The position numbers and the translations under genes were made by a program. A stretch of 64,000 nt of DNA from Pegea sp. RAD2-039 (taxonomy: Eukaryota > Chordata > Thaliacea > Salpida > Salpidae), in assembly GCA_034620365.1 (NCBI GenBank), contig JAQGEQ010000296.1, positions 1 through 64,000 on the forward strand. The letters run 5' to 3'. Below, in pieces: positions 32,338-64,000 of this stretch. Within the stretch, counting starts at the first letter, position 1. Each line of letters opens with the position of its first letter. Below the pieces are notes generated by a model. It was not told the origin of the DNA, searched no databases, and saw only the letters and a list, made by a program, of their open reading frames with translations.

Positions 32338-33505
32338 AAAAAATTATTAAAATGAGAAATGATGTTAGATATTTACATGTAATTTTAGTTTTTATCCTAA
32401 TTAAAATTTTTTTACAAAAAGATAGTTCCTATTTTTGCTTCAATGACTTCTTTAAAAATTTTCAAGTTACATGATGTAACTTTGGCATTTAACATCTTTC
32501 TATCATCTATATGTCCTCCTCTTATTCCCTTCATCATCAACTTCAAACCAAATTATCATCATGGTGAATGTGATGACGTCATAACTTGTGACGTCATTTG
32601 TAATTTTTGAAAATTAAATGAAATTATTTAAAAATAGAAAATTGTAATTTAAAAACTGCTTTCTTTTTCAGATGAAGAAAATGGAATTCCAAGAACAAAA
32701 AATAAAAGACATCAAAGTAAGATTAACAGGTTCTACAAATCTCCTTTAGTTCGGTTTGGTCTCAACACGTTTTTCTATATGGTCAGATTTATATCCCAAA
32801 AATCCCCCAAAAAATTTATTCCAAAAAATTTTCAGATTTTTTTATCACTTTTTTCAATTGTTCTTCTCTTTAACTTAAAAACATCACCAAGAAGTCTTTC
32901 AATCTTTGAAATAATCCTTCTAATTTGGATCATCATTTTAGCAAGTGATGAAGTTAATGAGGTATATCTTTAAAAAATCTAAAATCCGTATTTTAAAATC
33001 ATCTGTAGATCTTAGAACGAAAACGCGACAAAAGTTTATCAAAAAGATTTCAAATATGGATTGGAAATTCTTGGAATAAATTAGATGCTTTTGGTTTGAT
33101 CTTATATTTAATTGGTTTTAATTTAAGGTATTTTCATTGGTTAATATTTCAGCCAATCACAGTTGCGTATTTTTAGAAAAAATTTAATTAGATTTTTAAT
33201 TATGTTTTGCTTATAGACATTTTTGTTCTATAAAAAGTCTTAGAAGTTATTTTTAGACGAATTTTGAATTATAAGGAACTTTAAATGGTAGAAATTTGAT
33301 TGTTTCCAAAAGAAGCTGCTTACCAGAATAACTTAATAAAAAAGAACAAATAAATCTTCGAAACTAGTTGTTTTCTATCAAAATTATTAAAATGAGAAAT
33401 GATGTTAGATATTTACATGTAATTTTAGTTTTTATCGTAATTAAAAATTTTTTTACAAAAAGATAGTTCCTAATTTTGCTTCAATGACTTCCTTAAAAGT
33501 TGTTC
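32338..33505 (+). repeat. 125-bp direct repeats flanking TRPM copy A
   Basis: 32338-32462 and 33381-33505 are near-identical (gagaaatgatgttagatatt, atagttcct, ttgcttcaatgacttc). Between them sits the partial TRPM copy A. A tandem duplication, or an insertion with a duplicated flank, would give this arrangement. Confidence 0.85.
32483..33175 (+). pseudogene. TRPM2-like copy A: chimeric fragment (exons 14-17 only)
   Basis: Contains the 3' part of exon 14 (32483-32563), all of exon 15 (32672-32781) and exon 16 (32836-32961), and most of exon 17 (from 33009), equivalent to copy B from the pre-S1 region to S3. Exon 17 breaks off in the middle at about 33170, right after PITVAYF, and runs into sequence that in copies B and C lies downstream of the gene's stop codon (compare 33180-33300 with 44150-44280). 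The intron between exons 15 and 16 is identical to that of copies B and C. There is no start, pore or Nudix part, so it cannot make a channel. Confidence 0.9.
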
Positions 33506-33921
33506 ATCCGTCTTCAGCGGTTCAAAAATATTTTTTTAAGGAGTAGAAGGAATTATCTTTCAAACTTCATTAAATCCTATCAACTCTTTTCAGATTTTTA
33601 TTTGAAAATTGAGTTTTTTTGACAAGTTTCTTAATTTTCTTCTCTTATTTTGTTTTCAATTTATAACTTGTTATTAATTACGCCTTTTTGCTTATTTCTT
33701 TTGTTTATGAAGTTTTATTGTGATATTTAGGATCTAGAATTTGTTACTCGCAGCGATGTTTTAAATAAAATTAAATGTGAAAAAGATAAATTTTTTTAAT
33801 TGTTTGGAAACATTAAATAGAAATTTGTTGAATGATGATAAATTATTATTTTAAAGTTGGTAAATATTAAATGGTTTAAATGAAAGCGTTTTAGGTATCT
33901 GTAGGAGGTATCATTTGAATC

Positions 33922-36900
33922 ATGGAGTCTGAAATCAAGCTATCTGATGGCGTGACTCCAACTAATGCTTATGGACAAGTTGAGTTTGTCGGATCAAAAG
34001 AAAGTGTTTCCAAAGTTAGTTTTTATAAAATTTTATAAAATAATTTTTTGGATCAATAATTATAAAATTGATAAATCAAAACCTTCAAATTTATTATATC
34101 TATTTGAAACTTAAAATTATAGATCAAAAGAAGTTCCCTTTATTCTAATTGCATATTACTTTTATTTCATTTTTGGTCAAAAAGTTTTTGTTTTGTTCTT
34201 TTGGTATTTTGAAAAGCTTGAAAAATTGTTTAAATATTTTAAATCCAGATCAAAATGTTTTGTTCTTTTATGCTCAGCTTTAAATATTTTCTCTCAACAA
34301 ACACTCATATAAAAATACATAAAGTTTTCAGGTAATAATATTGAATGACTAATTAATAATTTACTAAAATTATTTGCTTAGTAGTTTTCAACAGTTTATT
34401 TTCATCAAATTTTTGCTTAAAAAATACCTTGCATCAGTCGGGAATCGAACCCGAACCTCCAACGCAGCAGACAAAATTCCTACCGCTTAACCACCGTGCT
34501 ATCAAAGAAATAGTCAAAATTCTTTAATAAATGTTCAAATTTTCTTTCAGTATATTCGTATTGGTAGTAAAACTGAACCGGAACTCGTCTTCCGGTATAT
34601 GAGAGAGGAATGGGGACTTCGAACACCGAAGTTAATCATCTCTGTGACCGGAAGCGCCGCTAATTTTAATATGAACGACAATCTAATGAGATCTTTTAGT
34701 AAAAATCTTATTAAAGCAGCTCAAAGTACAGGTGAGATTTGTGACGTCATTTAGTTGATCGATGACGTCATCTGCTTTTAGGATCATGGATTCTATCCGG
34801 AGGAACTGATAGTGGAGTTATGTATCACGTCGGAAGAGCTGTTAATGAATATTCTCATGTCAATAATGAATCTCAAAAAGTAGTGAAAGTTTTTGGATAT
34901 TTTTGATAAATTTTAAGATGATTGATCTTTTGAATGAAGATCTTTAAAAAGTCTTTAAGATCAACATCCAAAGATCTTCAGGATGATTAACAGCATCCAA
35001 AAGTTTTTTAATTTAGACAAAAACTCAACATACTGATAAAAAAAAAAATTTTTAGTAAAATTAAAAATTTGACAAAAAAAATAATTTTGCAGATAATTGC
35101 TGTTGGCATAGCAACTTGGGGAACGCTTCATAATCGCGACAAACTTCTTATAACTTCACGAAATGATATAAGCGCGGTAAGTAGGCCATTTTCAAAAAAC
35201 GCTGTTTTAGTCACTTTGAACTAATTTGCATAATTCAGAATGCTCAGTATCCAATGGAGAAACCTCCTATAGGATCAGCTCTTCTTAATAAGGATCACTC
35301 TCATTTCATTCTTGTGGATGACGGATCAAAAGGAAGTTTTCGAAAAGAGATCAGTTTTCGAGCAAGTCTAGAAGCTTTTATCGGTAATTTGAAAATTTAT
35401 TTTAAATAAAAATGTAATTAATGATAATTATAGAATTATAAATTTTTATTTATAAAAAAACTGAAAATTTACAGAAAATAAGTAAATTGGAAAATATAGA
35501 TTTTTGAAATCTCAATTTTGAGTTTCTGAATATAAAAATTGAGGTCCTTATTTCAGTCTCAGAGGTGGTCAAGGGCCACATTTATGTTTCAGAGGTGGCT
35601 GAGGTCCTTCTTTCAGTCTCAGAGGTGGTTGAGGACCGCATTTCTGTCTCAGAGGTGGTTGAGTTCCTTATTTATGTCTCAGAGGTGGTTGAGGTCCTTA
35701 TTTATGTCTCAGAGGTGGTTGAGGGTCGCATTTCTGTCTCAGAGGTGGTTGATAGCCGCATTTAGGTCTTAGAGGTGGTTTAGGTCCTTATTTATGTCTC
35801 AGAGGTGGTTGAGGTCCTTATTTCTGTCTCAAAGATGGTTTAGCGCCGCATTTATGTCTCAGAGGTGGTTGAGTTCCTTATTTATGTCTCAGAGGTGGTT
35901 GAGGTCCTTATTTCTGTCTCAGAGATGGTTTAGCGCCGCATTTCTGTCTCAGAGGTGGTTGAGGGTCATTTTGGGTTATGGGTATTGGAATTCTATTAAA
36001 ACAAGTTTTGAAAAAGTCCTAAAATTCTTCATTTACACATTTCTTTATTTTATTCAAAATACGACTGAAGATGATGAATTTACAGCTCTTATAGCGAACA
36101 AAAACAAGTTTTACTTAAACCAGAAATATTAAGTTTAATTTTAATAGCCAGTTGGTTCAAATTGCCAACTTGAAATATAAAAACCAAATAAAACTACAAA
36201 GAAATTTGGCTTATAAAATAACTTTGTATTTATTCAACAAATAACTGTAGACAAAACTATATGAGCAGAAAGATAATGAAAAGGTCTTAAGTAATAATAA
36301 CACTGCAGAGGTGAAAATAAAACTGAAGTTGTGGATGAATGACAAAATATATGAAGAAATGGTAGTTGTTGTACATTATTTGTTGAAAATATTAACTAAA
36401 TCATATTTTTTACTGAAAATTTATTTCAGGAAATGAACAAAGAGACGAAAAATCCTTTAATGTTGGTTTATTATTACAAGGTGGTGAAACGTCCTTAGAG
36501 GTAGAAATTGATTTTAGTAAATATTTGCTGAAATTTAAACAATCAATTTTTTAGACGATTTATTTGATGTTGAAAAAGTCAATACCAGTTGTTGTACTTG
36601 CTTCATCTGGTGGTTGGGCTTCTATATTAGCTTCTATTTATCATAAAAATCATCTTACAGAAGAACTAATCTCTGATTTGATGGAAGGTAATCTTTATTT
36701 ATAGTTTGAAGTTTCAAAAGATTTATGATCCAAATCTGGTAATCTTATAGAACAGAAGATGACTCCACAACGTCTTGAAGTAATTAATCCTCAAAAACTC
36801 TCTTATCTTACAAATATGGCGAGAGAGTGTGTCTTGATGAAGAATAGGATGACAATCTTTCAAGCTGATCAAGATGAAGATCTTGACTCTTCTATTCTTA

Positions 36901-39900
36901 AATCAATTTTAACAAGTTAGTGTCCTTCGCGCCTTAAACTGGTTTTTAGTCGAGGAAATTTTACTCGTCTGATACATTTGATGTAATCGTTGTCACAACC
37001 CAAATTATCTGTGTGTTTGTTACATCCGCCTACCACTCTAAAGGTCCCGGGTTCGAGCCCAGGTAGACACATACTTGCGAATGGAAAAGTCCATAAACCC
37101 CGTGTAGAAGGGTCTTGTTAGTCTGGCAAAAAACGAAGTTTATACTTTTGTTTAAATCATTAAAAAGGAGTTTTTACTCGTCTGATACATTTGATGTATT
37201 TTTCTATTTGATGTTATGTAAAAATGTCATGTAAAATTTTAAGTTGATGAAAAATTCTTTGAATAAGCAAACCCAAAATTTTCTTTAAAAAAATTTGTAA
37301 GAAATAAAAATTAATTTTAATTGTTTAATTTTAAAGATGATTCTCTTGTCGAAGAGCAACTGAAGCTGTGTCTTGCCTGGAACCGAGGAGATATTGCTCG
37401 CAAATACATCTTTGAAGAAGATAGATTTCCGAGTTGGGATTCTTTACAGAAACATTTAGTTGATGCATTTATTAAAGTAAATATACAAAAGTTTAAAACT
37501 TTTTATTTGATTAAATTATTTATTTGTAGGATCAACATGAGTTTGTAGAATTATTTCTAGATTATCAAGTTCCATTTTCATTAAGTTATGAAGATCTTTT
37601 AGAGATTTATACAAAGATTCTTAATCTCGTAGAAGACAAAACATTTTTTAATAAATTATCTGGTTTAAAAGATGATGAAAAGATTGAGAATACTCATTTA
37701 ATTCGGTAAGTTGAGAATATTCTTGAGAAAAAGATTTTGAATATTTAATAGAATTAAGAAGAAGTTGCTAGGAAGAGCTTTTTTATCAAATTATCCAAAT
37801 AAAATTACGGAAAATCTAAATAAATCTCAAAATGTAAGTTATTTCAAATTTCTATTGAATTAATTTTGAATTTCTTTTTCTACTTTTTATTTATTTTACT
37901 CAACTAATGGCTTTAGCTAGCAAATTCTTTTAGCTATTGCTTTTATGAAACATGTTTTTATGTCTTCTAATTTAATTGATATGAAATGAATAGAAAAACT
38001 GCATAAGTTAAAATAAAAATTTAATTATTTTTTTATTATTTAATTCAAAACTTTTATCGTTTTTAGCGCCATCTAGCAGCGATAATTTTTATCAAATTAA
38101 AAACTTTAAAAATATTTTATATTAGCAATTTGTAGAAATCATAATTGAGATAAATCTTAAGAAAATTATCTTGATTTTAGAGAGTAATTAATTATAATTA
38201 TTTTTTTATTATATACAAACTGAAAACTATTTAACACAATTTTTATAAGCAATTTTTTGAGATATAAAATATATTTGTGATATTTGTAAGTGTTTGTTGG
38301 AAAATTTGTTTAAAATAGACAAGTTTTAAAAGATAATTGAAAATATAATTTATTAAAATTAAAAGTTCCAAAAAATACAAAAAAAATTCGTTTTAAAATC
38401 AAAATTTGAAACTTTTTTAGTTCAACACTTTCATTGAGCTTTTCTTCCTTTCTTTGATCTTCAATCGGATGAAAATGTCTTTAGTGATCTGGAAGATGGT
38501 TCCAGATCAAGTTTCAGCTTCAGCGGCTGCTTTTCGGGTCTTAAAATCGATCTCTAAGTTCCAGAATCAGGAAGAAGATGTGAGTGATGAAAACTCCATA
38601 AATTTCCAAAAAAAGATATTAATTTTTGCAAAATCACAAAACAACTTTTATTTTTCATAAAATCCATAAATAGACATTATTTTGGTTTTCCCCAAAATAA
38701 AATTCAAAAGTTTTCTAAAAAAATTCATTTTTGGAATTCTTTTACGATTTGATTTTTTTTTAACTTAGAAAACAGCTTCAGAAAATTGTTCTCATTACAA
38801 ACAATTGACAATCGGTCTTCTAGATGAGTGTTTTGATAAAGATCAGACGAAGACTTGCTGTTTATTAACTAGAAGTTTGAGGAAATGGGGAAATCTAACT
38901 TGCCTCAATTTCATCACCAACTCAAAAGACATCGTAAATATTTTCTTATTATTTCTGTAAAAATTCATTGATGAAACGAGCCATTTTAGTAAAAAGCCAT
39001 TTTTGTAAAAACCATTTTTGTAAAAATCAATTTTTGCTAAAAGCAATTTTTGTAAAAAACCGTTTTCGTAAAAAGCCATTTTCGTAAAAAGACATTTTTG
39101 TAACTTAGGATTTGATTGCTCATTCGTCAGTACAAAGAGTTGTTGCGGATATTTGGAGAGGAGAAATTAGTGATGAAACTTTTGCATTTAACATCTTTCT
39201 ATCATGTATATGTCCTCCTCTTATTCTCTTCATCATCAACTTCAAACCAAATTATCATAATGGTGAATGTGATGACGTCATAGTTTGTGACGTCATTTGT
39301 AATTTATGAAATTTAAATGGAATTATTTAAAAATAGGAAAATTGTGATTTAAAAATTACTTTTTTCAGATGAAGAAAATGGAAGTAAAAAAAGAAGAGAT
39401 GAAAGTTATCGAAATAAGATTTACAGGTTCTACAAATCTCCTTTAGTTCGATTTGGTCTCAACACGCTCTTCTATATGGTCAGATTTATATCCCAAAAAT
39501 CCCCCAAAAAATTTATTCCAAAAAATTTTCAGATTTTTTTATCACTTTTTTCAATTGTTCTTCTCTTTAACTTAAAAACATCACCAAGAAGTCTTTCAAT
39601 CTTTGAAATAATCCTTCTAATTTGGATCATCATTTTAGCAAGTGATGAAGTTAATGAGGTATATCTTTAAAAAATCTAAAATCTGTATTTTAAAATCATC
39701 TGTAGATCTTAGAACGAAAACGCGACAAAAGTTTATCAAAAAGATTTCAAATATGGATTGGAAATTCTTGGAATAAATTAGATGCTTTTGGTTTGATCTT
39801 ATATTTAATTGGTTTTATTTTAAGGTATTTTCATTGGTTAATATTTCAGCCAATCACAGTCGTGTATTTTGACAGATTTTATTCCATGAATGCTTGTAGA

Positions 39901-41634
39901 ATTATCTTGTGTACATCTTTTTCAATTTATTGTATCCGTTTACTGCATATATTCGCAAAAATTCGAACTTTAGGACCGACTATTATTATGGTCGGAAAAA
40001 TGGTTTGTTTAAATTATTTTAAATTATTTTCAAAAAGTATTTTTAAAAAATTGATTTTAAAAAATCGAAAAAATTTAAAATTTTAAAATTTAAGTTAAAA
40101 TCTATCAAAACGGCGAAAATGACTTCTTACAAAACTGGCCGTGAACATTCAGTTTCTTTTAGGTTAGGGATCTTTTTCTGTTCTTTTTCATCCTTGCTGT
40201 CTTCCTGATTTCATATGGTGTAGTCCGGCAAGCTCTTCTTTATCCAGATGAAAATAGGATTGGAACTGCTTTGTTGGGCGTCTTTAATCGACCTTATTGG
40301 ACTATTTACGGAGAATTATTCCTAGATGAGATTATTTATAATCCAAGTTAGTCAGAACTAAAATGGCTTTTTCAAAAATGACCCAAATTTTTTTCAAGAT
40401 GATGATCAATTTGTTTGCTCCGAGATTGAATCTGAAATTTTATCTGGATCTAGTAGATGTCCTCAGCAGCAAGCGGCTGTCCCTGTCATCTCAGCAATAT
40501 ATCTTCTTTTTGCCAATATCCTTTTACTTAATCTTCTGATCGCGATGTTTACGTGAGAAATTGATCTGAATTTTTTTTATTCTAAATTAGTTATTAATAA
40601 ATGAAATTAAAATTAAATAAATTTCAATGAAAACTTCAAATTTTCGCGCAAAACTAAAAACGACCATTTTTGTCATTTAGATATTCTTTTAATAATTTAA
40701 TTGAAAATTCTGATCGAATTTGGAAACGGCAATTATATGAATTAACTTTTGAATATTATTACCGTCCAACTCTACCTACTCCTCTCAGTATTTTCTCACA
40801 TATTCATCGTTTATTCCATTTTTTTAAAATGAAATCTCAAAAGAAGATGAAAACACTGGATAAGAAGAAGAGTAAAGAACTCAAAGATGATTTTAGTAAG
40901 ATTTCAACTATTTTGGGTTTCAACTATTTTGGGTTACAACTAATTTGAGTTTCAACTTTTTGGGTTTTTTCCTTTTTTGGATTTTGCCTTTTTTGGGTTT
41001 CAACTTTATGGGTTTTAACTTTTTTGGGTTTCAATTTTTTTGGGTTTCAACTTTTTGGGTTACAACTAATTTGAGTTTCAACTTTTTGGGTTTTTTACTT
41101 TTTTGGATTTTGCCTTTTTTGGGTTTCAACTTTATGGGTTTTAGCTTTTTTGGGTTTCAATTTTTTTGGGTTTCAACTTTTGGGGTTTTAACTTTTTGAG
41201 ATTCCAACGTTTTTAGGTCTTAACTTTTTTGGGGTTTCAACTTTTTAGATTTCAACTTTTTTGGGGATTAACTTTTCTAATATTTTTTTAAGAGCGTAAA
41301 GTCTCTTTCAAAGACGAAACTTCTTTAAAACTTTGGATTAAATGGAATGTCGATGTCTACAACTCATTAGCTCCGGAAAGACTTGATCTTAATAGTCAAA
41401 TCACAACTATCTACGAAAGGTGACCGTTAGATGATGTCATTGTAGATGTCATAACGTCATTTTTGTAGATTGGAAAAGAACATGAGATCGTTAGATTTGA
41501 TTCAGAAAAACATAAAAAAAAATAAAAAAAAAATGAAAAATATTGAAGTAAATTTGAAGAACAATTCTGTGAGGCTGTTCAGTGGATTATTTCAGCCTTT
41601 CAAGATAATTCTACAATTCCTGAAATATCTCTAA
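33922..41634 (+). CDS. TRPM2-like cation channel, copy B, channel part intact (22 exons)
   Basis: Exons: 33922-34014, 34551-34731, 34782-34888 (3' end uncertain by 9), 35093-35176, 35239-35383, 36430-36500, 36555-36687, 36751-36915, 37337-37476, 37530-37705, 37752-37833, 38421-38579, 38769-38933, 39109-39262, 39369-39478, 39533-39658, 39706-40002, 40163-40346, 40399-40552, 40681-40895, 41293-41419 and from 41469. All phases agree. The N-terminal SLOG/TRPM homology region has LIISVTGSAANF, GSWILSGGTDSGVM, GIATWGTLHNR and HSHFILVDDGS, closest to TRPM2. Then come S1-S6, a pore loop ([13 protein letters not shown]), S6 ([16 protein letters not shown]), the TRP region (IWKRQLYEL) and a lysine-rich coiled coil. 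A 2-bp insertion (tg, 41569-41570) relative to copy C shifts the frame and causes a stop at 41632, giving about 1077 residues without the Nudix domain. The start is the first in-frame ATG after a TGA; a short N-terminus or a missing 5' exon is possible. Confidence 0.88.
34428..34505 (-). mobile_element. tRNA-like SINE head in TRPM copy B intron 1
   Basis: On the minus strand an A-box-like TGGTTAAGCGG and a perfect T-arm (TCGGGTTCGATTCCCGA) are present, but the two ends cannot pair as an acceptor stem. It is therefore a tRNA-derived repeat rather than a working tRNA. Confidence 0.6.
35545..35970. repeat. 30-bp minisatellite in TRPM copy B intron 5
   Basis: About 14 units of a 30-bp motif (agaggtggttgaggtcctta plus tttatgtctc). 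Because 30 is a multiple of three, all frames stay open and give artefactual repeats such as SQRWLRSLFM. It lies wholly inside the intron between exons ending at 35383 and starting at 36430. A diverged shorter version sits in the matching intron of copy D. Confidence 0.95.
36128..36405 (+). repeat. GAGCAGAAAG-family repeat in TRPM copy B intron 5
   Basis: Near-identical to 23620-23890 in metaxin intron 1, and to the inverted 59040-59275 in copy D. It ends only about 25 bases before exon 6. Confidence 0.85.
36920..37135 (+). mobile_element. tRNA-derived SINE in TRPM copy B intron 8
   Basis: Contains B box GGTTCGAGCCC at 37050-37060, followed by aggtagacacatacttgcga and aaaagtccataaaccccgtg. 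The same insertion, inverted, is at 58281-58490 in copy D, so it predates the duplication. Confidence 0.75.
38985..39105. repeat. Short tandem repeat, about 17 bp, in TRPM copy B intron 13
   Basis: Seven to eight imperfect units of the type gtaaaaagccatttttg, immediately before exon 14. Confidence 0.85.
40905..41280. repeat. 15-bp-type minisatellite in TRPM copy B intron 20
   Basis: Tandem ttttttgggtttcaact units filling the intron between the exons ending at 40895 and starting at 41293, with a roughly 135-bp internal duplication. The matching intron in copy C (62170-62300) has fewer, diverged units. Confidence 0.9.
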
Positions 41635-41669
41635 ATCCAGGTGATAATCTTTATAAAATTTCATACCTT

Positions 41670-41940
41670 TTTGGTTTTTAACTTTTTTGGATTTTAAATT
41701 TTTTTGGTTCCAACTTTTTTGGATTCCAACTTTTTTGGATTTCAACTTTTTTGGATTACAACTTTTTTGGATTTTAACTTTTTTGGATTCCAGCTTTTTT
41801 GGATTTCAACTTTTTTTGGTTCCAACTGTTTTGGTTTTTAACTTTTTTGGATTCCAACTTTTTTGGATTCCAACTTTTTTGGATTCCAACTTTTTTGGAT
41901 TTCAACTTTTTTGGATTTTAACATTTTTTAACTTTTTTTT
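41670..41940. repeat. 15-bp-type minisatellite in TRPM copy B intron 22
   Basis: About 17 units of aacttttttggattcc type. Copy C has only about five (61680-61765). The motif is close to that of intron 20, so one repeat family seems to have colonised two introns of the same gene. Confidence 0.9.
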
Positions 41941-41989
41941 TAAACTTCACAATTCAATTTTTTCTTTCAAAACTTTTTACTTGTTTCAG

Positions 41990-44235: not shown

Positions 44236-44418
44236 TTAGACAAATTTTGAATTATAAAGAATTTTAAATGGTAGAAATTTGAATCTTGGATCTTAATGAA
44301 TCTTTTGAACTTTAATTCTTAAAAGCTTTGATCAGTAAATTGAAAATTTATCTCAATCTCTTTTCTGGTTTATATATCTCACTTTTATTTTCAAAAGATT
44401 TAATGTATTTCTTTATTC

Positions 44419-44570
44419 AGTATATATAAGAAATGCTTTTAAAGAGTTTGAAGAAATTGTTGATAGCTATGATGGACAACAAGGTTACATCAGTTTGTTT
44501 TATCCAATTTGTTTTGCCAAGCATAAGGAAAACAACATTTCCTTTTTTAAGTTCTTAAAATTTTTCTAAA
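44419..44570 (+). other. Possible orphan coding exon
   Basis: After a plausible acceptor (tttattcag, about 44420), an open stretch reads YIRNAFKEFEEIVDSYDGQQ then GYISLFYPICFAKHK and stops at 44570. Its composition is more protein-like than the surroundings. I do not recognise it and found no partner exons. Confidence 0.25.
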
Positions 44571-52470: not shown

Positions 52471-52839
52471 ATAAAACATTGAGCTTAATAGAAATGTAAA
52501 AGCTCGTTTTGCAAAGTTATGAATATATTTATTAATAACAGCCAGTTTCGGCCAAGTGCGGTTGGAGGTACTACAAAATTGTTGTCAAGTAAATCTTAAA
52601 AAACTAAAAATTTGTTTCTTCGTTTTCCTTGAGATTGTCTTTTCCAAATGTTTTGGTTTATAATAACAGTTTGTGAAGCGCTCGTCAATAACTACATAAG
52701 TTTTTCTGCCTACGTTACCTGGTAGTCAATGACAGTTTCTTCTAATTTCTGAGAAACAAACAAATCGGTTTAGGTATTGTTGGAAATGTTGAAAAGGTGA
52801 TATTGATGTCAATTTTTTCTATTTACTTTTTAGTTTTTT

Positions 52840-53180
52840 GCGGAGTACCATTATAATTTCCTGCAGTATTCCGTTTGCTAGTATCGATTTTAAGTCATTT
52901 TATATCCCGTTTGAAAGTATCTTTAAACCGATGTTACGTTTTCTCTATCCTTCTTTATATGAAACGAATATAAGTTTATTATCTGCCGCATTTTAAAACC
53001 AGGGCTTATTTGGACTTAGCCATAATCGACTTTTATTTAGAGATTCTATTCGGAACGATCCGCTGCGATATCTTCCCAATTGCTGGTATTGATGTTGAGC
53101 GATTTCATATCGCGCTTGCAAGTATCTTTGAAACGTAGACAGAGGCGGCCGATGTTGTGTTTAGATAGCTCCTAGTACAA
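52840..53180 (-). mobile_element. Two degraded remnants of another retrotransposon ORF C-terminus
   Basis: On the minus strand 53035-53180 reads IGRLCLRFKDTCKRDMKSLN, INTSNWEDIAADRSE. This resembles the ...RFKDVCKRDLK...W..ADR tail of non-LTR reverse transcriptases common in animals. A second, more damaged version (KDTFKRDIK, IDTSKRNTA) lies at about 52860-52960. Assignment rests on remembered motif similarity. Confidence 0.6.
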
Positions 53181-55830
53181 CAGGTCCTCTGAGATCTGCT
53201 GTCAGATCTCAAATTATTAATTGTGGATGATCTTTAAAATTTTTTTTAATTTTCTTAAACTTTATTAAACCACAAAAATATTTTCAACTTTTCGTTTGAA
53301 AACCTGTTAAAAAATATTCATTTTTATTTCGTATCTTCAAGCAATTTTAAGAAATTTAAAAAATATCGAAAAACTTTTTTTCGCTGACTTATTTTTAAAC
53401 TTGTGAAAATTTTGATAAAATAAAATATATGAATCCAAAAAGATTTAGTGATCAGCAAATATTTCAAATATTTCTCAGCAAAAAATCCATATAGTTTAAT
53501 CCTTTTAGTTTTAAAGAATTTTCAATTCAATTTTAAAACATTAAAAACATAATTTTAAAGTGAGTTAATTTTGCAAAATTCTGCAATTGTTTAAAAGTAA
53601 TTAATTGATTTTTTTTTTAATGTGTTCAAAGTTCAACTTGAAATAAACTTTTTCCAAGTTATGTTTTTTAGAAATAGATTTAAAGAAAATATCTATTTCT
53701 AATTTAAATTAAATATTTTTATAAAAGTTTTTAAATTCTTTACATTTTTTTACAAATAAAGTTACAAAACTTTTGATCTTTTCCAAATCAAGTTTGTCTG
53801 TTTTGATTATTTTAATAATTCTTAGTATAAGAAATAAAGATATAAGAAAAAATTGTTGAAAATTTCTGAAACTATAGTTCAAATAATTAAATTATAGCAA
53901 TTATATCTACATCACCTAGAAAAGTTTTCTAAAAAGATAGATTTAGTAACTTAATACTGCCTACGTTCTATATCATCGGTCATGTGACGTCACGTGATTC
54001 ACAAACGGAAACCAAGTGTATAAAATTGTTGATATAATATCATTAATCATTATTTAGTTTTTAATTGATTTTAATAAACGACTAAAAATTAAATTATTAC
54101 AAAAACAGAATCAAATTTTGAAAATGGATTTCTTTTTAAAACTTTTTTATTTAATCCGTTTTAATCAACAAATTTGCATATTTTAGGTAAACTTGTTAAA
54201 ATTGAAAAAAAATATTTTTATGAGTTTTAAATAAATAAAAGTAAATATTTTTTAAATAGAAAGTTAAACAAAAATTTTTTTCTGTAGAACTGATCATTAA
54301 CTGAAAAATTATGTAAAAGTTTTACTTTTGTAAAAAATATTTTGTAATCACTAATTATTGAGTTTTTGAAGTTTATAAAAAATATATTTTAAAGAAAAAA
54401 GGAATTTTTAGTTGATAGCAAAATGTTTATCAGAAGTTTATTTTATAAAAATGCAAGATTAGAATAAGGATAATGTTTTTTTCAGCTTTATTTTAAATTA
54501 TTATTGAAATTATTATTCAGTTTATTTTGAGAAATTATAAATTTCAAAAGTTTTTGATAATTTTAAAGTCAAAATCGATTTCAAAATCTAATTTTTGAAA
54601 TTATATATTTGTTTAAAACAGTTTTTATTGTTTAAATCATTTCATAGAAATTTGTCTATGCTCAATTCTTTGAAAAAATAATTTTTGTGAAAATTTTTTT
54701 ATTTAATTGTTAAAATTATCGTTAGAATTTAGAAATATAATTTTTAACTAATTATTTGTTCAAATTTTTGAGTGGTACAGTTCTTCAGCATCATAATTTA
54801 ATAAAACAAACTTTTGAACTTTAAGTTTTTTTATTTTTACCAAATATTTCACGAAGTTCAAAAAAATGAAAATCTGTAACCTTTCTAAAATTTTGTTTAA
54901 AAACATTTAAGTAATATTGTTAACTAGCCAATCAAACTGCTAGTTTCTTCATTTATTTTGTAATTTTTTTATTCATATCTGCAGTGTTCCTATTTTTTGT
55001 ATTAATTTTGCTAAATTGTGACACTAAAAATCTTTTTCTCATCTTGTTTTGGTTCCTATAAAAGTTATGATATTTGTCGCAGCCGTTGGTTATTTAAATA
55101 AATATTATTAGCAAACTTAATATATTAAGATTATTTAAGTAGATTCTGAAATATTTTAGATAAACATAAATTAAGAAAGTTAAATGTGATTATGTAATCT
55201 CTTATTATTGTTCATTTTAAAAATACAGCTTTCTGCATTACTAAGTAAGAAATAATGTCTATTTGTGTTTTAAAAACAAATTTTTATTTTGTTTATTTCA
55301 TTCTTAATGTTTATATTTATATAAAATCATATAAAACAATAATATTTTCATAAGTTCAAACGTTTTTTAATAATACATTGAATTAAATAATTACCCTTAG
55401 ATAAATATATGATGTTTTAGACAAACTGAAAAAAGTTTCGAGAGTTTTTTTTATTTAATAACTTTTCTATTTTCATTTCGTAAATTTGTTTTGAAAAAAT
55501 GTAGAAAGTAGTTTTGGAAAGAAATTATATAGAACCCACGCTTTTTTATCGAACCATTTTCACAAAAAAATTCAACTTGACAAATATTAAGAGGAAACAA
55601 AAAAATATTATTTATAAAATTTCTGTTTTTCTGCAGATTTTGAAATAGGTTTTAATAAAAAATATATTTTTTTTGTTACAAATTAAAATAATTTTTTTTT
55701 TACAAATTTAAATAATTGTTTATTATTTCGAGAAATTTTTTATATGGAAATAAAATTTTGCTTGTAAACTAGAGATAATATTTATCTAATACTTACTTTT
55801 AATAATAAATATTATAAATAAACTTTTTAA
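53181..55830. other. AT-rich intergenic stretch with one inverted dispersed repeat
   Basis: No gene was recognised. At about 54925-55075 there is a diverged GAGCAGAAAG-family repeat in minus orientation (cttcatttattttgtaattt, tctgcagtgttcct, tctcatcttgttttggttcc). Confidence 0.5.
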
Positions 55831-55854
55831 TTGTTTTTTAGTAGAAATTTGAAA

Positions 55855-56874
55855 ATGGAAAACTGCAGAAACAGTTCGTTATGTTTAGATGTTACTAAAA
55901 ATGAAAACATTTTATACAAAGAAAATATTTTTATGAAAAATATCTGGATTATTACTGAAGCAGTGACAGTCTTCTTGCTTTTGTCCACTGTATGGGCCGC
56001 GGTTTCCTTATTAATCTATGGAAACAGCCGCGGTAAATGGCGGAAACGGAAATCTGGAAAAAGCTCACGAATTCTGATGACGCTTGCGGTCTTGACCCCT
56101 GTCCTAACCTTTTTAAGAGTATCTTGTACACAATCTGTCATATTTGTGGATTTATTTTTCACAAATAAAGAAATTGGTTATATTCCTTGTGAAATTACTT
56201 TAAAATTATCTCATATCTTCTTTTATTTATCTCAATTGCCGACTTATAACTTTTTATGGTTTAGACAACAAGCTATTTACAACAAACCATCAATCAAACA
56301 TTTGAACACAAAAACAGTTCGTTACTTTAGCTGGGGGGCTTTTATTTTGGGGAACATTGGTGGTTTTTCAACTTTAATCTCATTTCTGTCGCTTTTACGA
56401 TTTATTTTATCTGATTATGGATGCACAAGAGACATGAAGATATCAACGAGCCGGACTCCTTTTTACATCGCCGGTGTTTTGATGATTTTTTCACAAATTA
56501 TTATTTTTCTACTTTTTGTTCATCCTCTACGGTTACATAAAGATAGAAAAAACCCGATTAAAGCTGACCGGTCTACAAATGTCAGAACGCGGCTCCGACG
56601 CGCAATTCGACTCGCTACTGTTAGTATGCTAATTTGCATAATTTCGTCAGTTTTATCGCTTGTTTTAGTGACAGTAATTGTACCAAGAAGCTCACCGTCA
56701 TCGTTTACCAACTCTATTTATGATATCGGACTTTTTATCAACATCTTAGCAGTCATGTTATCATTTGAGGATTATAAAATTATCGCTTTGAGTATTTGTT
56801 GTCAAAAGAAATTTTTGACGCGATTACGTATACGATCGATGACGTCACAAGTTAGCAACGCAAGTGCTGTTTGA
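55855..56874 (+). CDS. Intronless 7-transmembrane protein (putative orphan GPCR)
   Basis: A single uninterrupted frame of 339 residues starting at ATG 55855 (the frame is open a little further upstream, but without ATG). Seven hydrophobic spans are visible: about residues 22-48 (IWIITEAVTVFLLLSTVWAA), 75-95, 107-130, 152-182, 198-222, 251-276 and 287-310. An N-glycosylation site (NSS) lies in the N-terminus. A Cys at the top of span 3 (YIPCEITLKL) and one in the second outer loop (DYGCTRDM) could form the usual GPCR disulphide. It lacks the DRY motif (WFRQQ instead) and NPxxY (span 7 ends with SFEDYKIIAL). Loops are basic. The family was not recognised. The clean frame amid AT-rich DNA argues for a real gene. 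An acceptor-like ttttttag 14 bases before the ATG may join a non-coding 5' exon or a spliced leader. Confidence 0.85.
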   Translation: MENCRNSSLCLDVTKNENILYKENIFMKNIWIITEAVTVFLLLSTVWAAVSLLIYGNSRGKWRKRKSGKSSRILMTLAVLTPVLTFLRVSCTQSVIFVDLFFTNKEIGYIPCEITLKLSHIFFYLSQLPTYNFLWFRQQAIYNKPSIKHLNTKTVRYFSWGAFILGNIGGFSTLISFLSLLRFILSDYGCTRDMKISTSRTPFYIAGVLMIFSQIIIFLLFVHPLRLHKDRKNPIKADRSTNVRTRLRRAIRLATVSMLICIISSVLSLVLVTVIVPRSSPSSFTNSIYDIGLFINILAVMLSFEDYKIIALSICCQKKFLTRLRIRSMTSQVSNASAV

Positions 56875-56950
56875 ATTTTTCATTTTTTTTTACTTTTTTT
56901 GTAAATAATTAGTTGTGGTGAAAATTTTGTTTAATATTTTTGTATCTAAA

Positions 56951-56956
56951 AATAAA
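56951..56956 (+). promoter_or_regulatory. Polyadenylation signal AATAAA (7TM gene)
   Basis: AATAAA about 77 bases after the stop codon of the intronless 7TM gene. Confidence 0.55.
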
Positions 56957-58280
56957 TTGTTTCAGAAATTTATTTAAAAAGTTTTAATTCAGATTTTTAA
57001 ATGTTTCAAATCAGTTTTATTTGTACATTTTGTTTATTAGAAGATATTAAATAATTTGATAGATTCAAAAAGAATTAAACAATTTGTGATTCTTATTCTT
57101 AAGTTTATAAACAAAAAAATGTAAAAATAAAAAAAATTGTTTCAAATAATTTATCAAATTTTATTGATTTTAAAAATTCTAAAAAATTGAAAAATATTTT
57201 GAAATCAAATAATTATTAGAGAAAAAAAAAAGATTTAAAAATAAATTTCAATTGTTCAAATCTCGATATAATTGCAATAAGTAGAATCTTCTAGAAGTAA
57301 GCATTGTGTCTTTCAGCAACCAAACTGAGATATTCTTGATGACTTGCAAATAACTTCAGTTTTCTTTCAACTCTTTTCCATTTAGCTTTACAAGCACCTT
57401 CACCAGGCTAAAAATAAAAAGATTGATTTTGTAAACTAAAAGTTTATCGTCAAGCAATCTGTTTCCATGACAACTCCGTAGATTAGAATCAAATATCAGA
57501 GGAGTTTTTGCCGCATATGTAATTGTGTTTTCAACTTTTGTGGAAATTTTTTTTTTATTTTTTTTGGAGATTATTTAGTTTTCGACTAATCATTAATTCG
57601 TGGATTTTCTGCGAGTCAAGGTGCTAAATAAAATCGCGTTTTATCATTTGAGGCTTGTAATAAAGTAACTTTTCTTCAAACCAAAACTTTAAAAACTTTT
57701 TATCATCATCTAACGGAAAGTTTTAAAATTTTTGCCGTTTTTTGAATCGAAAATATTTTTGTGAAAATCTAAAAACTAGGAAGACCTCTAATAAGATGTT
57801 TTCAAAGATTGTTCTGTCTCCATCATGATAATTCATCACTAGAGTCTCTACCCATGATAAATCTGTGTTTCGGAAATCATCACAATATCCTCTAAAAATC
57901 TGTAAGAAGATAAGATCAGAAGAAGATCAGATCTCATCAAAATTACCTCAACTCCTTCAAATTTCAGAAAAAATTTCACTTTTTGCATCATTTCATTTTC
58001 ATCTTGATTATTTCTACTTTTAATTTTCACTTCTTCAAAAAATTTGTTTCTTAAAGTCTCTGATATACTCTGTCCTGGGTTCACCATTCCCTAAAATTAA
58101 AAAAAATAATGTTTTGATTTAATTAATAATTATTATAAATTCTACAAAAATTAAAATTTTTAAACAAAATGGTCGATTTCAAATATGGCCCAACCCAGGA
58201 ATGGCCCAATCATTACTACTACTTCTCAAAATAGCCACAAACTCCAAAACTGGTTTGTTCTCGATGTGGACCACTTTTCC

Positions 58281-58490
58281 CAGACTAACAAGACCCTTCC
58301 ACCCGGGTTTTATGGACTTTTCCATTCGCAAATATGTGTTCACCTGGGCTCGAACCCGGGACCTTTAGAGTGGTAGGCGGATGTAACAAACACACAGATA
58401 ATTTGGGTTGTGACAACGATTACATCAAATGTATCAGACGAGTAAAAACTCCTCATCTAAAAACCAGTTTAAAGTGCGAAGGACACTAAC
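58281..58490 (-). mobile_element. tRNA-derived SINE in copy D intron 8
   Basis: Inverted counterpart of the SINE at 36920-37135, with B box (GGTTCGAGCCC on the minus strand) at about 58350. One deletion breakpoint of copy D lies at its 3' end, where it meets Nudix exon sequence. Confidence 0.8.
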
Positions 58491-59039
58491 TTGTTAAAAT
58501 TGATTTAAGAATAGAAGAGTCAAGATCTTCATCTTCATCAGATTGAAAGATTGTCATCCTGTTCTTCATCAAGACACACTCTCTCACCATATTTGTAAGA
58601 TAAGAGAGTTTTTGAGGATTAATTACTTCAGGACGTTGTGGAGTCATCTTCTGTTCTATAAGATTACCAGATTTGGATCATAAATCTTTTGAAACTTCAA
58701 ACTATAAATAAAGATTACCATCCATCAAATCAGAGATTAGTTCTTCTGTAAGATGATTTTTATGATAAATAGAAGCTAATATAGAAGCCCAACCACCAGA
58801 TGAAGCAAATACAACAACTGGTATTGACTTTTTCAACATCAAATAAATCGTCTAAAAAATGGATAATTTAAATTTCAGCAAATATTTACTAAAATCAATT
58901 TCTACCTTTAAGGACTTTTCACCACCTTGTAATAATAAACCAACATTTAAGGATTTTTCGTCTCTTTGTTCATTTCCTGAAATTAATTTTCAGTAAAAAA
59001 TATGATTTAGTTAATATTTTCAACAAATAATGTACAACA

Positions 59040-59275
59040 ACTACCATTTCTTCATTTATTTTGTCATTCATCCACAACTTCAGTTTTATTTTCACCTCTG
59101 CAGTGTTATTATTACTTAAGACCTTTTCATTATCTTTCTGCTCATATAGTTTTGCCTACAGTTATTTGTTGAATAAATACAAAGTTTTTTTATAAGCCAA
59201 CTTTCTTTGCAGTTTTATTTGGTTTTTATATTTCAAGTTGGCAATTTGAACCAACTGGCTATTAAAATTAAACTT
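59040..59275 (-). repeat. GAGCAGAAAG-family repeat in copy D intron 5
   Basis: Inverted counterpart of 36128-36405, at the same position relative to exon 6. Confidence 0.85.
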
Positions 59276-59439
59276 AATATTTCTGGTTTAAGTAAAACTT
59301 GTTTTTGTTCGCTATAAGAGCTGTAAATTCATCATCTTCAGTCGTATTTTGAATAAAATAAAGAAATGTGTAAATGAAGAATTTTAGGACTTTTTCAAAA
59401 CTTGTTTTTATAGAATTCCAATACCCATAACCCAAAATG

Positions 59440-59635
59440 ACCCTCAACCAACTCTGAGACAGAAATGCGGCCCTCAACCACCTCTGAGACAGAAATAAGT
59501 ACCTGAACCAACTCTGAGACAGAAATGCAGCCCTCAACCACTTTTTGGACTAAAATAAGGACCCCAACCACCTCTGAGACAGAAACGCGACCCTCAACCA
59601 CTTCTGAGACTGAAATAAGGACCTCAATTTTTATA
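59440..59635. repeat. 30-bp minisatellite in copy D intron 5
   Basis: About 6-7 diverged units (ccctcaaccacctctgagac type) corresponding to the roughly 14 units of copy B. The array has expanded in B or contracted in D since duplication. Confidence 0.9.
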
Positions 59636-60145
59636 TTCAAAAACTCAAAATTGAGATTTCGAAAATCTATATTTTCCAATTTACTTATTTTCTGTAAATT
59701 TTCAGATTTTTTTATAGATAAAAATTTATAATTCTATAATTATCATTAATTACATTTTTATCTAAAATAACTTTTCAAATTATCCATGAAAGCTTTTAAG
59801 ATTTAAAATTCAAAAGATTCATTAAGATTCAAGATTCAAATTTCTACCATTTAAAATTCTTTATAATTCAAAATTCGTCTAAAAATAACTTCTAAAACCT
59901 TTTATAAAACAAAAATGGTTAGAAGCAAAACAAAATTAAAAAGTTTAATCAAATCTTTTCGAAAAAACTTTTCTAAAATCAATTTTAATTACATGAAAAA
60001 TGTAAACAAAATTTTCAAAAAGATCCATTTAAAAACAATTTAGTTGTTTCAATTTATTTACAATATAAAATAAAACATCATTATATAAAATCTGAAAAAA
60101 TTTCAATTTTTCAAATCTCGATATAATTGCAATAAGTAGAATCTT

Positions 60146-63100
60146 CTAGAAGTAAGCATTGTGTCTTTCAGCAACCAAACTGAGATATTCTTGATGACTT
60201 GCAAATAACTTCAGTTTTCTTTCAACTCTCTTCCATTCAGCTTTACAAGCACCTTCACCAGGCTAAAAATAAAAAGATTGATTTTGTAAACTAAAAGTTT
60301 ATCGTCAAGCAATCTGTTTCCATGACAACTCCGTAGATTAGAATCAAATATCAGAAAAGTTTTTGCCGCATATGTAATTGTGTTTTCAACTTTTGTGGAA
60401 ATTTTATTTTTATTTTTTTTGGAGATTATTTAGTTTTCGACTAATCATTAATTCGTGGATTTTCTGCGAGTCAAGGTGCTAAATAAAATCGCGTTTTATC
60501 ATTTGAGGCTTGTAATAAAGTAACTTTTCTTCAAACCAAAACTTTAAAAACTTTTTATCATCATCTAACGGAAAGTTTTAAAATTTTTGCCGTTTTTTGA
60601 ATCGAAAATATTTTTGTGAAAATCGAAAAACTAGGAAGACCTCTAATAAGATGTTTTCAAAGATTGTTCCGTCTCCATCATGATAATTCATCACTAGAGT
60701 CTCTACCCATGATAAATCTGTGTTTCGGAAATCATCACAATATCCTCTAAAAATCTGTAAGAAGATAAGATCAGAAGAAGATCAGATCTCATCAAAATTA
60801 CCTCAACTCCTTCAAATTTCAGAAAAAATTTCACTTTTTGCATCATTTCATTTTCATCTTGATTATTTCTACTTTTAATTTTCACTTCTTCAACAAATTT
60901 GTTTCTTAAAGTCTCTGATATACTCTGTCCTGGGTTCACCATTCCCTAAAAAAAAAAAAATAATATTTTGATTTAATTAATAATTATTATAAATTCTACA
61001 AAAATTAAAATTTTTAAACAAAATGGTCGATTTCAAATATGGCCCACCCCAGGAATGGCCCAATCATTACTACTACTTCTCAAAATGGCCACAAACTCCA
61101 AAACTGGTTTTTCCTCGATGTGGACCACCTTTCCACCTTCGTCCCGTTCCCATCTGGTCACAATCGGGTCAGCAGCGTGGTTTGGACCATATCGTCCCAG
61201 CAAACCACGACCAGTTAGTCCAGTCCGTCCACGCGGGTTTCTGTTGATCAAATCTGTTTACTTTGGTCCTAAAATAGTGGACACTAACCTGGGCAGGAAA
61301 TCGACAATTTGATATTTGCCCAAGTGACTGGTCCGGTCCACATTAAATCGATAGTCAAAGTTGTTGAAAATCAGTGACACTTGTCTGGCTTTGGTAGAAG
61401 TGGACAGCTCTGTATCGGCTAATTCTTTGTTTTGTAGGACAATTTGGTCAGTATAGTAAGGTGGTTGGTAGGTGGGCCACGGCACCTGTCCACTAAACAT
61501 CAAAACGCGATTTAATGACGTCATCATCTTACCGTCCATGAGACTAGATGGTCAGGAACTTGGAGACGATGTTGGGTTTCTCCAGGGTAAGGACTTGTCC
61601 GTGATTTGATATGAACTGAAACAAGTAAAAAGTTTTGAAAGAAAAAATTGAATTGTGAAGTTTAAAAAAAAAAGTTAAAAAATGTTGAAATCCAAAAAAG
61701 TTGAAATCCAAAAAAGTTGGAATCCAAAAAAGTTGGAATCCCAAAAAGTTAAAAACCAAAAAGGTATGAGATTTTATAAAGATTATCACCTGGGTTTGGA
61801 GATATTTTAGGAATTGTAGAATTATCTCGAAGAGCTGAAATAATCCACTGAACAGCCTCAGAATTGATCTTCAAATTTTCTTCAATATTTATCATCCTTT
61901 TTTTCATCTTTTTTTTATCTTTTTTTATCTTTTTCTGATTCGAATCTAACGATCTCATGATCTTGTCCAATCTACAAAAATGTCGTCATCACATCTACAA
62001 TGACGTCATCTAACGGTCACCTTTCGTAGATAGTTGTGATTTGACTATTAAGATCAAGTCTTTCAGGAGCTAATGAGCTGTTGACATCGACGTTCCATTT
62101 AATCCAAAATTTTAAAGAAATTTCGTCTTGTGAAGAGACATTACGCTCTTAAAAAAATATTAGAAAAGTTAATCCCCAAAAAAGTTGAAATCTAAAAAGT
62201 TGAAATCCAAAAAAGTTAAAACCCAAAAAGTTGAAATCCAAAAAAGTAGAAAGCCAAAAAAGTTGAAACCAAAAAAAGTTGGAACGCAAAAAAGTTTAAA
62301 TCTTACTAAAATAATCCTGGAGTTCACTCTTATTATCTTTGTTTTCTGTACTCTTCTTCTTATTCAGTGTTTTCATCTTCTTTTGAGATTTTTCCATCAA
62401 AAAATGGAATAAACGATGAATATGTGAGAAAATACTGAGAGGAGTAGGTAGATTTGGACGATAATAATATTCAAGAGCTAATTCATATAATTGCCGTTTC
62501 CAAATTCGATCAGAATTTTCAATCAAATTATTAAAAGAATATCTAAATGACAAAAATGGTCGTTTTTTGTTTTGCGCGAAAATTTGAAGTTTTCATTGAA
62601 ATTTATTTAATTTTAATTTCATTTATTAATAACTAATTTAGAATAAAAAAAAATCAGATCAATTTCTCACGTAAACATCGCGATCAGAAGATTAAGTAAA
62701 AGGATATTGGCGAAAAGAAGATATATTGCTGAGATGACAGGGACAGCCGCTTGCTGCTGAGGACATCTATTAGATCCAGATAAAATTTCAGATTCAATCT
62801 CGGAGCAAACAAATTGATCATCATCTTGAAAAAAATTTGGGCCATTTTTGAAAAAGCCATTTTAGTTCTGACTAACTTGGATTATAAATAATCTCATCTA
62901 GGAATAATTCTCCGTAAATAGTCCAATAAGGTCGATTAAAGACGCCCAACAAAGCAGTTCCAATCCTATTTTCATCTGGATAAAGAAGAGCTTGCCGGAC
63001 TACACCATATGAAATCAGGAAGACAGCAAGGATGAAAAAGAACAGAAAAAGATCCCTAACCTAAAAGAAACTGAATGTTCACGGCCAGTTTTGTAAGAAG

Positions 63101-64000
63101 TCATTTTCGCCGTTTTGATAGATTTTAAATAAAATCTCAAAAATTAAAATTTTTTCGATTTTTAAAATCAATTTTTTGAAAGTACTTTTTGAAAATAATT
63201 CAAAATTTTTTAAACAAACCATTTTTCCGACCATAATAATAATCGGTCCTAAAGTTCGAATTTTAGCAAATATATGCAGTAAACGGATACAATAAATTGA
63301 AAAAGATGTGCACAAGATAATTCTACAAGCATTCATGGAATAAAATCTGTCAAAATACTCGACTGTGATTGGCTGAAATATTAACCAATGAAAATACCTT
63401 AAATTAAAACCAATTAAATATAAGATAAAACCAAAAGCATCTAATTTGTTCCAAAAATTTCCAATCCATATTTGAAATCTTTTTGATAAACTTTTGTCGC
63501 GTTTTCCTTCTAAGATCTACAGATGATTTTAAAATACAGATTCGAGATTTTTTAAAGATATACCTCATTAACTTCATCACTTGCTAAAATGATGATCCAA
63601 ATTAGAAGGATTATTTCAAAGATTGAAAGACTTCTTGGTGATGTTTTTAAGTTAAAGAGAAGAACAATTGAAAAAAGTGATAAAAAAATCTGAAAATTTT
63701 TTGGAATAAATTTTTTGGGGGATTTTTGGGATATAAATCTGACCATATAGAAGAGCGTGTTGAGACCAAATCGAACTAAAGGAGATTTGTAGAACCTGTA
63801 AATCTTACTTTGATGTCTTTTATTTTTTGTTCTTGTAATTCCAGTTTCTTCATCTGAAAAAATAGTAATTTTTAAATTAGAATTTTTCTATTTTTAAATA
63901 ATTTCTGTCAATTTTCATAAATTACAAATGACGTCACAACTTATGACGTCATTACATTCACCCTTAAGATAATTTGGTTTGAAATTGATGATGAAGGGAA
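60146..64000 (-). CDS. TRPM2-like channel, copy C, intact 3' half with NUDT9-like Nudix domain
   Basis: The 5' part lies beyond the window. Minus-strand exons (numbered as in copy B): 64000-63962 (part of 14), 63853-63744, 63689-63564, 63516-63220, 63060-62877, 62824-62671, 62542-62307, 62147-62021, 61971-61790, 61615-61533, 61485-61289, 61240-61048, 60945-60802, 60754-60641 and 60262-60146 (TAG). All phases agree and there is no internal stop. It encodes S1-S6, the same YGEL pore as copy B, the coiled coil, and then a full NUDT9-H domain: [63 protein letters not shown] and [18 protein letters not shown]. In TRPM2 this domain binds ADP-ribose to gate a Ca2+-permeable channel. The Nudix box is altered (NPGQ for NPGE; NKFVEE where human NUDT9 has REFGEE), so hydrolysis is doubtful but ligand gating remains plausible. 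Confidence 0.92.
61680..62300. repeat. Short 15-bp-type minisatellites in copy C introns 22 and 20
   Basis: 61680-61765 (gttgaaatccaaaaaagttg units) and 62170-62300 (aagttgaaatccaaaaaagt units) are the inverted counterparts of the larger arrays at 41670-41940 and 40905-41280. Confidence 0.85.

Follow-up and report, generated by a model that had tools for sequence, protein, structure and literature searches.

This locus raises the question of how a gene for a TRPM2-type channel came to be present several times on one contig, and of what became of the NUDT9-H domain in its tail. The window, that is, the whole stretch of 64,000 nucleotides analyzed, comprises positions 1-64,000 of contig JAQGEQ010000296.1 (173,814 bp; here C191) in the GCA_034620365.1 assembly (105.7 Mb, 387 contigs) of Pegea sp. 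RAD2-039. Three near-full copies of the gene (B, C, and E) were found on C191, together with two fragments (A and D) and repeats of A and of part of D; the self-comparison covered this contig up to position 94,000, and its remainder was covered by the genome-wide searches only. Direct observations are the duplication, the modelled exons, the residues of the Nudix box, the pore motif and the broken state of NUDT9-H in copy B. Our reading of them, to which a probability of about 0.7 is given, is that a TRPM-beta locus was probably duplicated both in tandem and in inverted orientation and keeps exchanging sequence among its copies, its NUDT9-H domain having lost hydrolysis earlier and its pore having been kept.

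An altered Nudix box and an invertebrate-type pore

The exons were delimited by homology and splice signals. Nineteen of them (X0-X16, with X5a/X5b and X8/X8b) encode the start, the melastatin SLOG region, S1-S6, the pore and the TRP helix, and five more (X18-X22) encode NUDT9-H; the tunicate TRPM2-type gene has at least 24 exons. In B, C, and E, each of the 19 X0-X16 exons has a GT donor and each of the 18 internal ones an AG acceptor; in both B and C these exons hold 2,986 coding bases with 0 stops. The exons on which the comparison depends are the following:

33922..40895, + strand: exons X0-X16 of copy B (19 exons, 2986 coding bases, 0 stops)
40163..40346, + strand: exon X14 of B (S5-pore), with the filter YGELFLDEI, identical in C and E
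62877..63060, - strand: exon X14 of C (S5-pore)
41992..42902, + strand: NUDT9-H exons X18-X22 of B, broken, with gaps relative to C
60641..61615, - strand: NUDT9-H exons X18-X22 of C, open throughout
60802..60945, - strand: exon X21 of C, with a non-canonical Nudix box whose first G comes from X20

The channel exons are those of a TRPM. The best PDB matches were TRPM5 (1.6e-37) and zebrafish TRPM2 (1.2e-32), the melastatin SLOG region (exons found in B, C, and E) was matched in X1 by the Pfam family LSDAT_euk (PF18139) at 1e-16, and a six-helix channel with a TRP helix and a TRPM pore is present. The C-terminal NUDT9-H domain (human NUDT9, 1.2e-49; Nematostella TRPM2, 1.4e-48) is open in C and E, broken in B and partial in D. 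It was aligned in C to NUDT9 and to the TRPM2 of Nematostella vectensis (nvTRPM2, a TRPM-beta; PDB 6CO7), with 49% identity to the latter (117/237), and its conserved stretch is well kept in C and E. nvTRPM2 has the same S1-S6, pore and NUDT9-H, and its melastatin SLOG region matches too; the match spans the channel and NUDT9-H with 378 bits. An earlier note on this DNA had proposed a TRPM2-type gene with a NUDT9-H domain, and the TRPM and NUDT9 matches bear this out.

Copies B, C, and E have NKFVEE as their Nudix box and fragment D has NKFFEE; these four are all of the copies with the exon (4/4). The box region in B, C, and E begins GMVNPG[Q/E]. In an ungapped alignment, the same region is GGMVEPGQLVTQALKAEFGEE in Nematostella TRPM2 (AEFGEE), ...SGREFMEE in choanoflagellate TRPM2 and ...LKRILRQE in human TRPM2. 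In the C191 copies, the first glutamate of the box is replaced by lysine and the arginine by asparagine. Unlike these copies, the standalone NUDT9 of this genome (C21:1877.8-1879.1 kb), an ADP-ribose pyrophosphatase with the homologous domain in which no channel part was seen, keeps the canonical REFGEE; it serves as an internal control for the comparison. Thus, the canonical Nudix box reported for non-vertebrate TRPM-beta is absent in 4/4 copies, although vertebrate TRPM2 is also without it, so it is not strictly defining. Since the four copies agree, a sequencing error is very unlikely, and since the change is common to B, C, E, and D, it predates the duplications. When the Nematostella NUDT9-H domain was used as a probe genome-wide, matches were obtained on C191 and in the C21 NUDT9 only.

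In the N-terminal ADP-ribose site (human numbering), the alignment shows Y295 replaced by F and R302 kept, and the residue that we take to be R358 in the human protein is G; little weight was given to these observations. The roles of the residues of this site are described in PMC6759353. For the box itself, it has been described that the first glutamate helps to coordinate the catalytic Mg2+ in NUDT9, and that mutation of this residue and its neighbour leaves about 1% of the turnover in the isolated Nematostella domain (PMC6461439). We infer that NUDT9-H probably lost ADP-ribose hydrolysis before the duplications, with much of its conserved core kept.

The pore motif of B, C, and E, YGELFLDEI, equals that of Nematostella TRPM2 and is of the invertebrate type, in contrast to the inactivating FGQIPGYID type of human TRPM2 (IFGQIPGYIDG). 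It provides the filter Glu, the Phe and the acidic post-filter helix that PMC6461439 gives for the non-vertebrate type. In Nematostella TRPM2 this pore is accompanied by a catalytically active box, AEFGEE (PMC6461439), whereas the C191 gene has NKFVEE and lies in a rearranging cluster of copies. Vertebrate TRPM2, human included, resembles the C191 gene as read here, with NUDT9-H kept, a vestigial box (RILRQE) and a domain that is a binder and not an enzyme; the substitutions differ between human and C191, so the loss looks independent.

According to PMC6461439 and PMC13143021, invertebrate TRPM2-type channels stop by ADP-ribose hydrolysis and vertebrate ones by pore inactivation, catalysis and pore stability were lost together, and the non-vertebrate TRPM-beta compared, urochordates included, keep the catalytic residues. 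In its species table, PMC13143021 represents urochordates by two Ciona. In this genome, as judged from the predicted protein, the loss of the catalytic residues and the old pore are uncoupled, which is a new point. A tunicate gene with lost enzyme residues and an old pore would break the reported pairing and would provide a natural test of the role of hydrolysis. No report of a tunicate gene of this kind turned up in the excerpts available from the open-licence PMC literature. The altered box was absent from the earlier note, and we think that it is the more interesting feature of the locus, above the rearrangements.

A locus duplicated in tandem and inverted

The copies and repeats are laid out as follows, where coordinates beyond 64,000 come from the self-comparison:

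27471..44351, + strand: arm 1 (copy B and its 5' flank); partner C191:75010-59767 (-), mostly outside the window
44352..57239, no strand: spacer between the arms, with protein-kinase exons, a tRNA-Ser and a 347-amino-acid open reading frame
59767..64000, - strand: 3' part of copy C; the gene extends to about 69.3 kb (X0, by alignment) and the arm to 75.01 kb
C191:87,343-75,019, - strand: copy E, full, in tandem with C
32472..33173, + strand: fragment A (end of X11, X12, start of X13, derived from an additional copy), upstream of the first exon of B
57240..59798, - strand: fragment D, in which B-coordinates 35369-37131 run directly into 42454 and beyond; its tail is 98.3% identical to C
35539..35964, + strand: minisatellite with a 30-bp unit in the intron between X4 and X5a, shared by B, C, E and D
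36106..36394, + strand: interspersed repeat of 289 bp, again between X4 and X5a, with another copy at 23603-23888
43081..44235, + strand: perfect tandem duplication of 577 bp at the 3' end of B (43081-43658 = 43658-44235, 100%)

By self-BLAST, the inverted arms pair 27,471-44,351 (+) with 75,010-59,767 (-), in the blocks 27471-27542/75010-74939, 28325-34500/74940-68760 and 32000-44351/71249-59767; about 0.8 kb of arm 1 (27543-28324) is without a partner in arm 2. Introns, flanks and repeats were copied with the exons in opposite orientation, as in a segmental duplication with inversion. The shared introns, the shared 289-bp repeat and the shared minisatellites rule out retrocopies. Whole-locus duplication is also supported by the different flanks and different lesions of the three full copies on one contig. 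The earlier note had described four copies within 32 kb as whole-locus duplicates and not retrocopies, in an inverted arrangement. The duplicates are of the kind described, and long anti-diagonal blocks (32-44.35 kb against 57.2-64 kb) were obtained in the self-comparison that it had proposed as a check. Fragments and copies A, B, C, and D exist, but the third full copy, E, lies outside the window, where A and part of D also recur. The inverted duplication is real, but its arm begins at 27,471, not at 33.9 kb, and pairs with 75,010. Copy C, taken for an intact 3' half, is a full copy that extends past the end of the window, with X0 near 69.3 kb and its arm reaching 75.0 kb.

An assembly artefact, in which C, E or B would be allelic haplotypes placed end to end or the inversion would be chimeric, is regarded as highly improbable. 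The copies differ at about 3-5% of aligned bases, a level compatible with alleles if the animal is highly polymorphic, as tunicates tend to be; the perfect 577-bp tandem repeat in B and the dense cluster of deletions in its NUDT9-H region (described below) also point that way. Against this, B is inverted, the outer flanks of the two arms differ and the 12.9-kb spacer has no copy in the arms except short interspersed repeats. Copies C and E are alike in structure, but they end at different points. Moreover, genome-wide searches with the channel and NUDT9-H exons placed 19/19 and 16/17 of the matches on C191 (counts that are lower bounds); among the matches listed, the sole one elsewhere was the separate NUDT9 gene on C21, and no second contig carried these channel exons.

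The copies are in different states. No lesion was found in the 24 delimited exons of C (19 + 5), whose five NUDT9-H exons have AG/GT borders. In copy E, a short run of A in X12 is one base longer (+1), which breaks the reading frame and may be a sequencing error. Both C and E have an open X17, the coiled-coil exon, but in B a difference of two bases there shifts the frame. Eight gaps separate the NUDT9-H exons of B from those of C; in every case the missing bases are in B, and seven of the gaps shift the frame. With the introns included, 12 of 13 gap events in this region are losses in B, and there are no exon gaps between C and E in these exons. Copy B has lost its NUDT9-H frame and can at most make a tail-less channel. 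The deletions of B cluster in about 600 bp (42300-42910), in exons and introns alike, at 1-19 bp each, with few gaps in the channel part; it is possible that they reflect a poorly polished stretch. A central SLOG deletion in the N-terminal domain was considered and rejected, as exons X5a and X5b are present at 36.4-36.7 kb. The statement of the earlier note that each copy was broken differently is too strong: B, E, A, and D are damaged, but C is without a lesion in its delimited exons. That a single genome has three related channel copies differing in their lesions makes the cluster useful for studying domain loss.

Alternatively, copy B might be a new channel that still works after losing NUDT9-H, a course also taken by TRPM8 and TRPM4/5. 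Its 19 channel exons are open and without gaps against C, its lesions being confined to X17 and beyond, and deletion or mutation of NUDT9-H has been described to sensitise Nematostella TRPM2 currents to H2O2 (cited in PMC6461439). However, this copy was read from the genome alone, and its dN/dS is near 1 (see below); a working B is considered rather unlikely.

Fragment A recurs in the C arm at C191:70086-70778, where 23 of 692 aligned bases differ, and no counterpart was found in copy E by self-comparison. Fragment D, which adjoins the end of C, comprises the end of X4, X5a-X6, part of X20, X21 (with the box NKFFEE) and X22, and is without X0-X3, most of X4 and X7-X19, including the entire channel part. 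Its inner junction connects the intron following X6 with the middle part of X20. About 2-3 bases, by eye, are shared at this inner junction (B ~37,131 to 42,454), which would fit what end joining leaves. A stub matching the 5' part of D follows E (C191:75,044-76,603), and the C/D and E/stub junctions are letter-identical over the 101 bases compared, so the junction is older than the duplication of C and E or was copied with it. The possibility that D is a new fusion protein was rejected, since the channel part is absent and D is a remnant; neither A nor D makes a sensible product. Of the birth-and-death and domain shuffling suggested for this family in the earlier note, the former is supported; the latter, as a functional process, is not.

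Copies C and E are identical at their 3' ends for 1,626 bp, across the C/D junction, and for another 468 bp alongside, yet their channel exons differ by 124 substitutions in 995 codons. Such a mosaic of identical and divergent stretches is as gene conversion or unequal exchange would give. Local TRPM duplications have been described for reedfish and pike TRPM2 and for Xenopus TRPM7/8 (PMC13143021), which are likewise lineage-specific copies. The C191 cluster adds to these an inverted arm, stubs and recent exchange, which the available excerpts of that paper do not describe for tunicates.

Constraint, gene identity and proposed history

Several points weigh against the reading given at the outset. 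The basis is a single genome assembly, and the loss of hydrolysis was deduced, like the rest, from sequence alone. The delimited model stops short of the X16-X17 joint and of the last exon. Upstream regions of 3 kb (B), 5.5 kb (C) and 4.2 kb (E), scanned with simple motifs, gave no convincing N-terminal Cys-rich exon; such a segment is common in TRPM-beta channels, though not present in every one. In a 7-row channel tree, which is without a TRPS sequence, the C191 gene is basal, with supports of 27 and 46 around it. The ratio of nonsynonymous to synonymous change (dN/dS) in the channel exons was 0.99 (B-C), 1.08 (B-E) and 0.96 (C-E), and the observed synonymous share was 0.20-0.22, near the neutral expectation of 0.25. 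The exons of C and E are slightly more divergent than the introns (3.5% vs 2.8%). There is no sign of amino-acid constraint since the duplication.

The substitution counts were 121/3666 in exons and 172/3584 in introns for B-C, 135/3666 and 172/3652 for B-E, and 130/3717 and 102/3600 for C-E, where the exon counts take in the NUDT9-H columns and the intron counts omit the minisatellites and one indel-rich stretch. All of the copies might instead be decaying pseudogenes, with the altered Nudix box part of the decay: dN/dS is close to 1 for each of the three pairs, frameshifts are present in B and E, and A and D are fragments. Nevertheless, C is open in its 24 delimited exons with GT-AG borders, and the altered box is older than the copies and lies in a domain that otherwise retains 49% identity to that of Nematostella. 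Moreover, no stop was found in the 995 channel codons of B and C, which differ by 100 substitutions, whereas a neutral simulation with the intron spectrum (1,000 runs) gave a mean of 6.2 stops, and zero stops in 2 runs. Our interpretation is that the genes were kept open while their change was relaxed or diversifying, but a recent loss of constraint would fit as well. General decay is regarded as fairly unlikely.

As for the identity of the gene, two melastatin loci were found by the SLOG region, on C191 and C381. The C381 gene is alpha-like, with its best PDB matches to TRPM3, with which it groups at 96, and a Cys-rich start by eye. A match to a long open reading frame on C265 was rejected as a further TRPM gene, as it reads TRPC-like by eye from what we take to be TRPC motifs; another match of this sort was obtained on C14. 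Urochordates have been described to have only TRPM alpha and beta (PMC13143021); the pair on C191 and C381 matches this, so the C191 gene is most likely a TRPM-beta. In a 6-row NUDT9-H tree the C191 gene grouped with nvTRPM2 (70), but human TRPM2 grouped with the NUDT9 of this genome (67), and little weight was given to this tree.

The gene might instead be a TRPS (soromelastatin), of which C. elegans ced-11 is an example. In this family NUDT9-H is present, the N-terminal Cys-rich segment is absent and, in those species that were studied, the catalytic residues are gone (PMC13143021). Both the loss of the Nudix box and the motif scan, which found no convincing Cys-rich exon, would suit TRPS as well, the basal position in the small channel tree fits it, and the pore region in PDB searches was ranked with TRPM5, choanoflagellate TRPM2 and TRPM3 above human and Nematostella TRPM2. 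By contrast, the pore residues of TRPS are substituted, whereas the pore of C191 equals that of Nematostella TRPM2, and TRPS has been described as lost in Olfactores (both PMC13143021). A TRPS is therefore judged quite unlikely, and TRPM-beta is preferred. Three further scan matches were observed in the E flank alone; they include one stretch rich in Cys (C191:88,073, - strand) and one resembling a zinc knuckle (C191:88,970, - strand), neither of which has a counterpart upstream of B or C.

On the TRPM-beta reading, the ancestral TRPM2-type gene would have had a NUDT9-H domain that was already catalytically dead before the duplications. The whole locus would have been duplicated in tandem (E, C) and inverted (B), continuing sequence exchange would have produced the deletion-joined stubs (A, D and their repeats), and copy B would later have lost its NUDT9-H frame. 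The channel would be opened by ADP-ribose and Ca2+, as in its family, the tail would bind ADP-ribose without cutting it, and the pore is predicted to be stable, calcium-selective and non-inactivating. Such a channel could not destroy its own ligand, and clearance would fall to other enzymes, e.g., the separate NUDT9 with REFGEE. It is tentatively proposed, at slightly less than even odds, that at least one tunicate, tunicates being the sister group of vertebrates, independently made the NUDT9-H of the one TRPM2-type channel found in its genome a plain ADP-ribose sensor and kept a non-inactivating Ca2+-selective pore, that the gene multiplied and one copy dropped its tail, and that the reported link between the loss of hydrolysis and the gain of pore inactivation is not obligatory. 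That the fast-evolving copies are gamete channels is speculation, prompted by the fertilization current of Ciona oocytes, which is induced by ADP-ribose (cited in PMC5671594).

Host genome and neighbouring features

The host had been taken for a probable tunicate, which agrees with the 272 exact matches (149+123) of the 16-nt Ciona spliced leader ATTCTATTTGAATAAG (from PMC7986045), the reversed pattern giving 0+0. An array of spliced-leader RNA genes with a period of about 199 bp was located at C4:1135044-1142217, with GTAAGT after each of the 10 copies read. Many single or paired 16-mers lie outside this array and are perhaps marks of retroposed trans-spliced mRNAs. The pattern that we took to be the bdelloid rotifer spliced leader gave 0 genome matches at up to 2 mismatches. 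A monogonont rotifer has been reported without the bdelloid leader (PMC1925144), and the absence of that leader alone would not exclude rotifers. A monogonont host had been suggested by base content (G+C of 26% in the window and 28% over the fetched loci; rotifer values in PMC11954553), and this was overturned by the tunicate spliced leader. A COX1 search of the assembly, aimed at the mitochondrial code, gave no match.

Within the spacer, protein-kinase exons on the minus strand (46.3-50.8 kb), presumably NEK-like, are interspersed with a 113-bp minisatellite of about 14 copies (46706-48273), a 77-bp piece of which is found again at 4096-4172. A tRNA-Ser (CGA) of 82 bp at 45139-45220 (-) was called by both Rfam and ARAGORN. 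The uninterrupted 347-amino-acid open reading frame at 55831-56874 (+) has a multi-spanning look (seven-transmembrane-like by eye), and no Pfam family was above the cut-off. A tRNA-like sequence (T-arm-like by eye) without a tRNA gene call lies at 34430-34500 (-), in the X0-X1 intron of B, C, and E. Finally, a 103-bp satellite of about 85 copies occupies 8.5 kb of the window (13941-22482); arm 1 (29448-29709) and its partner (near C191:73517-73765) both have short copies of it.

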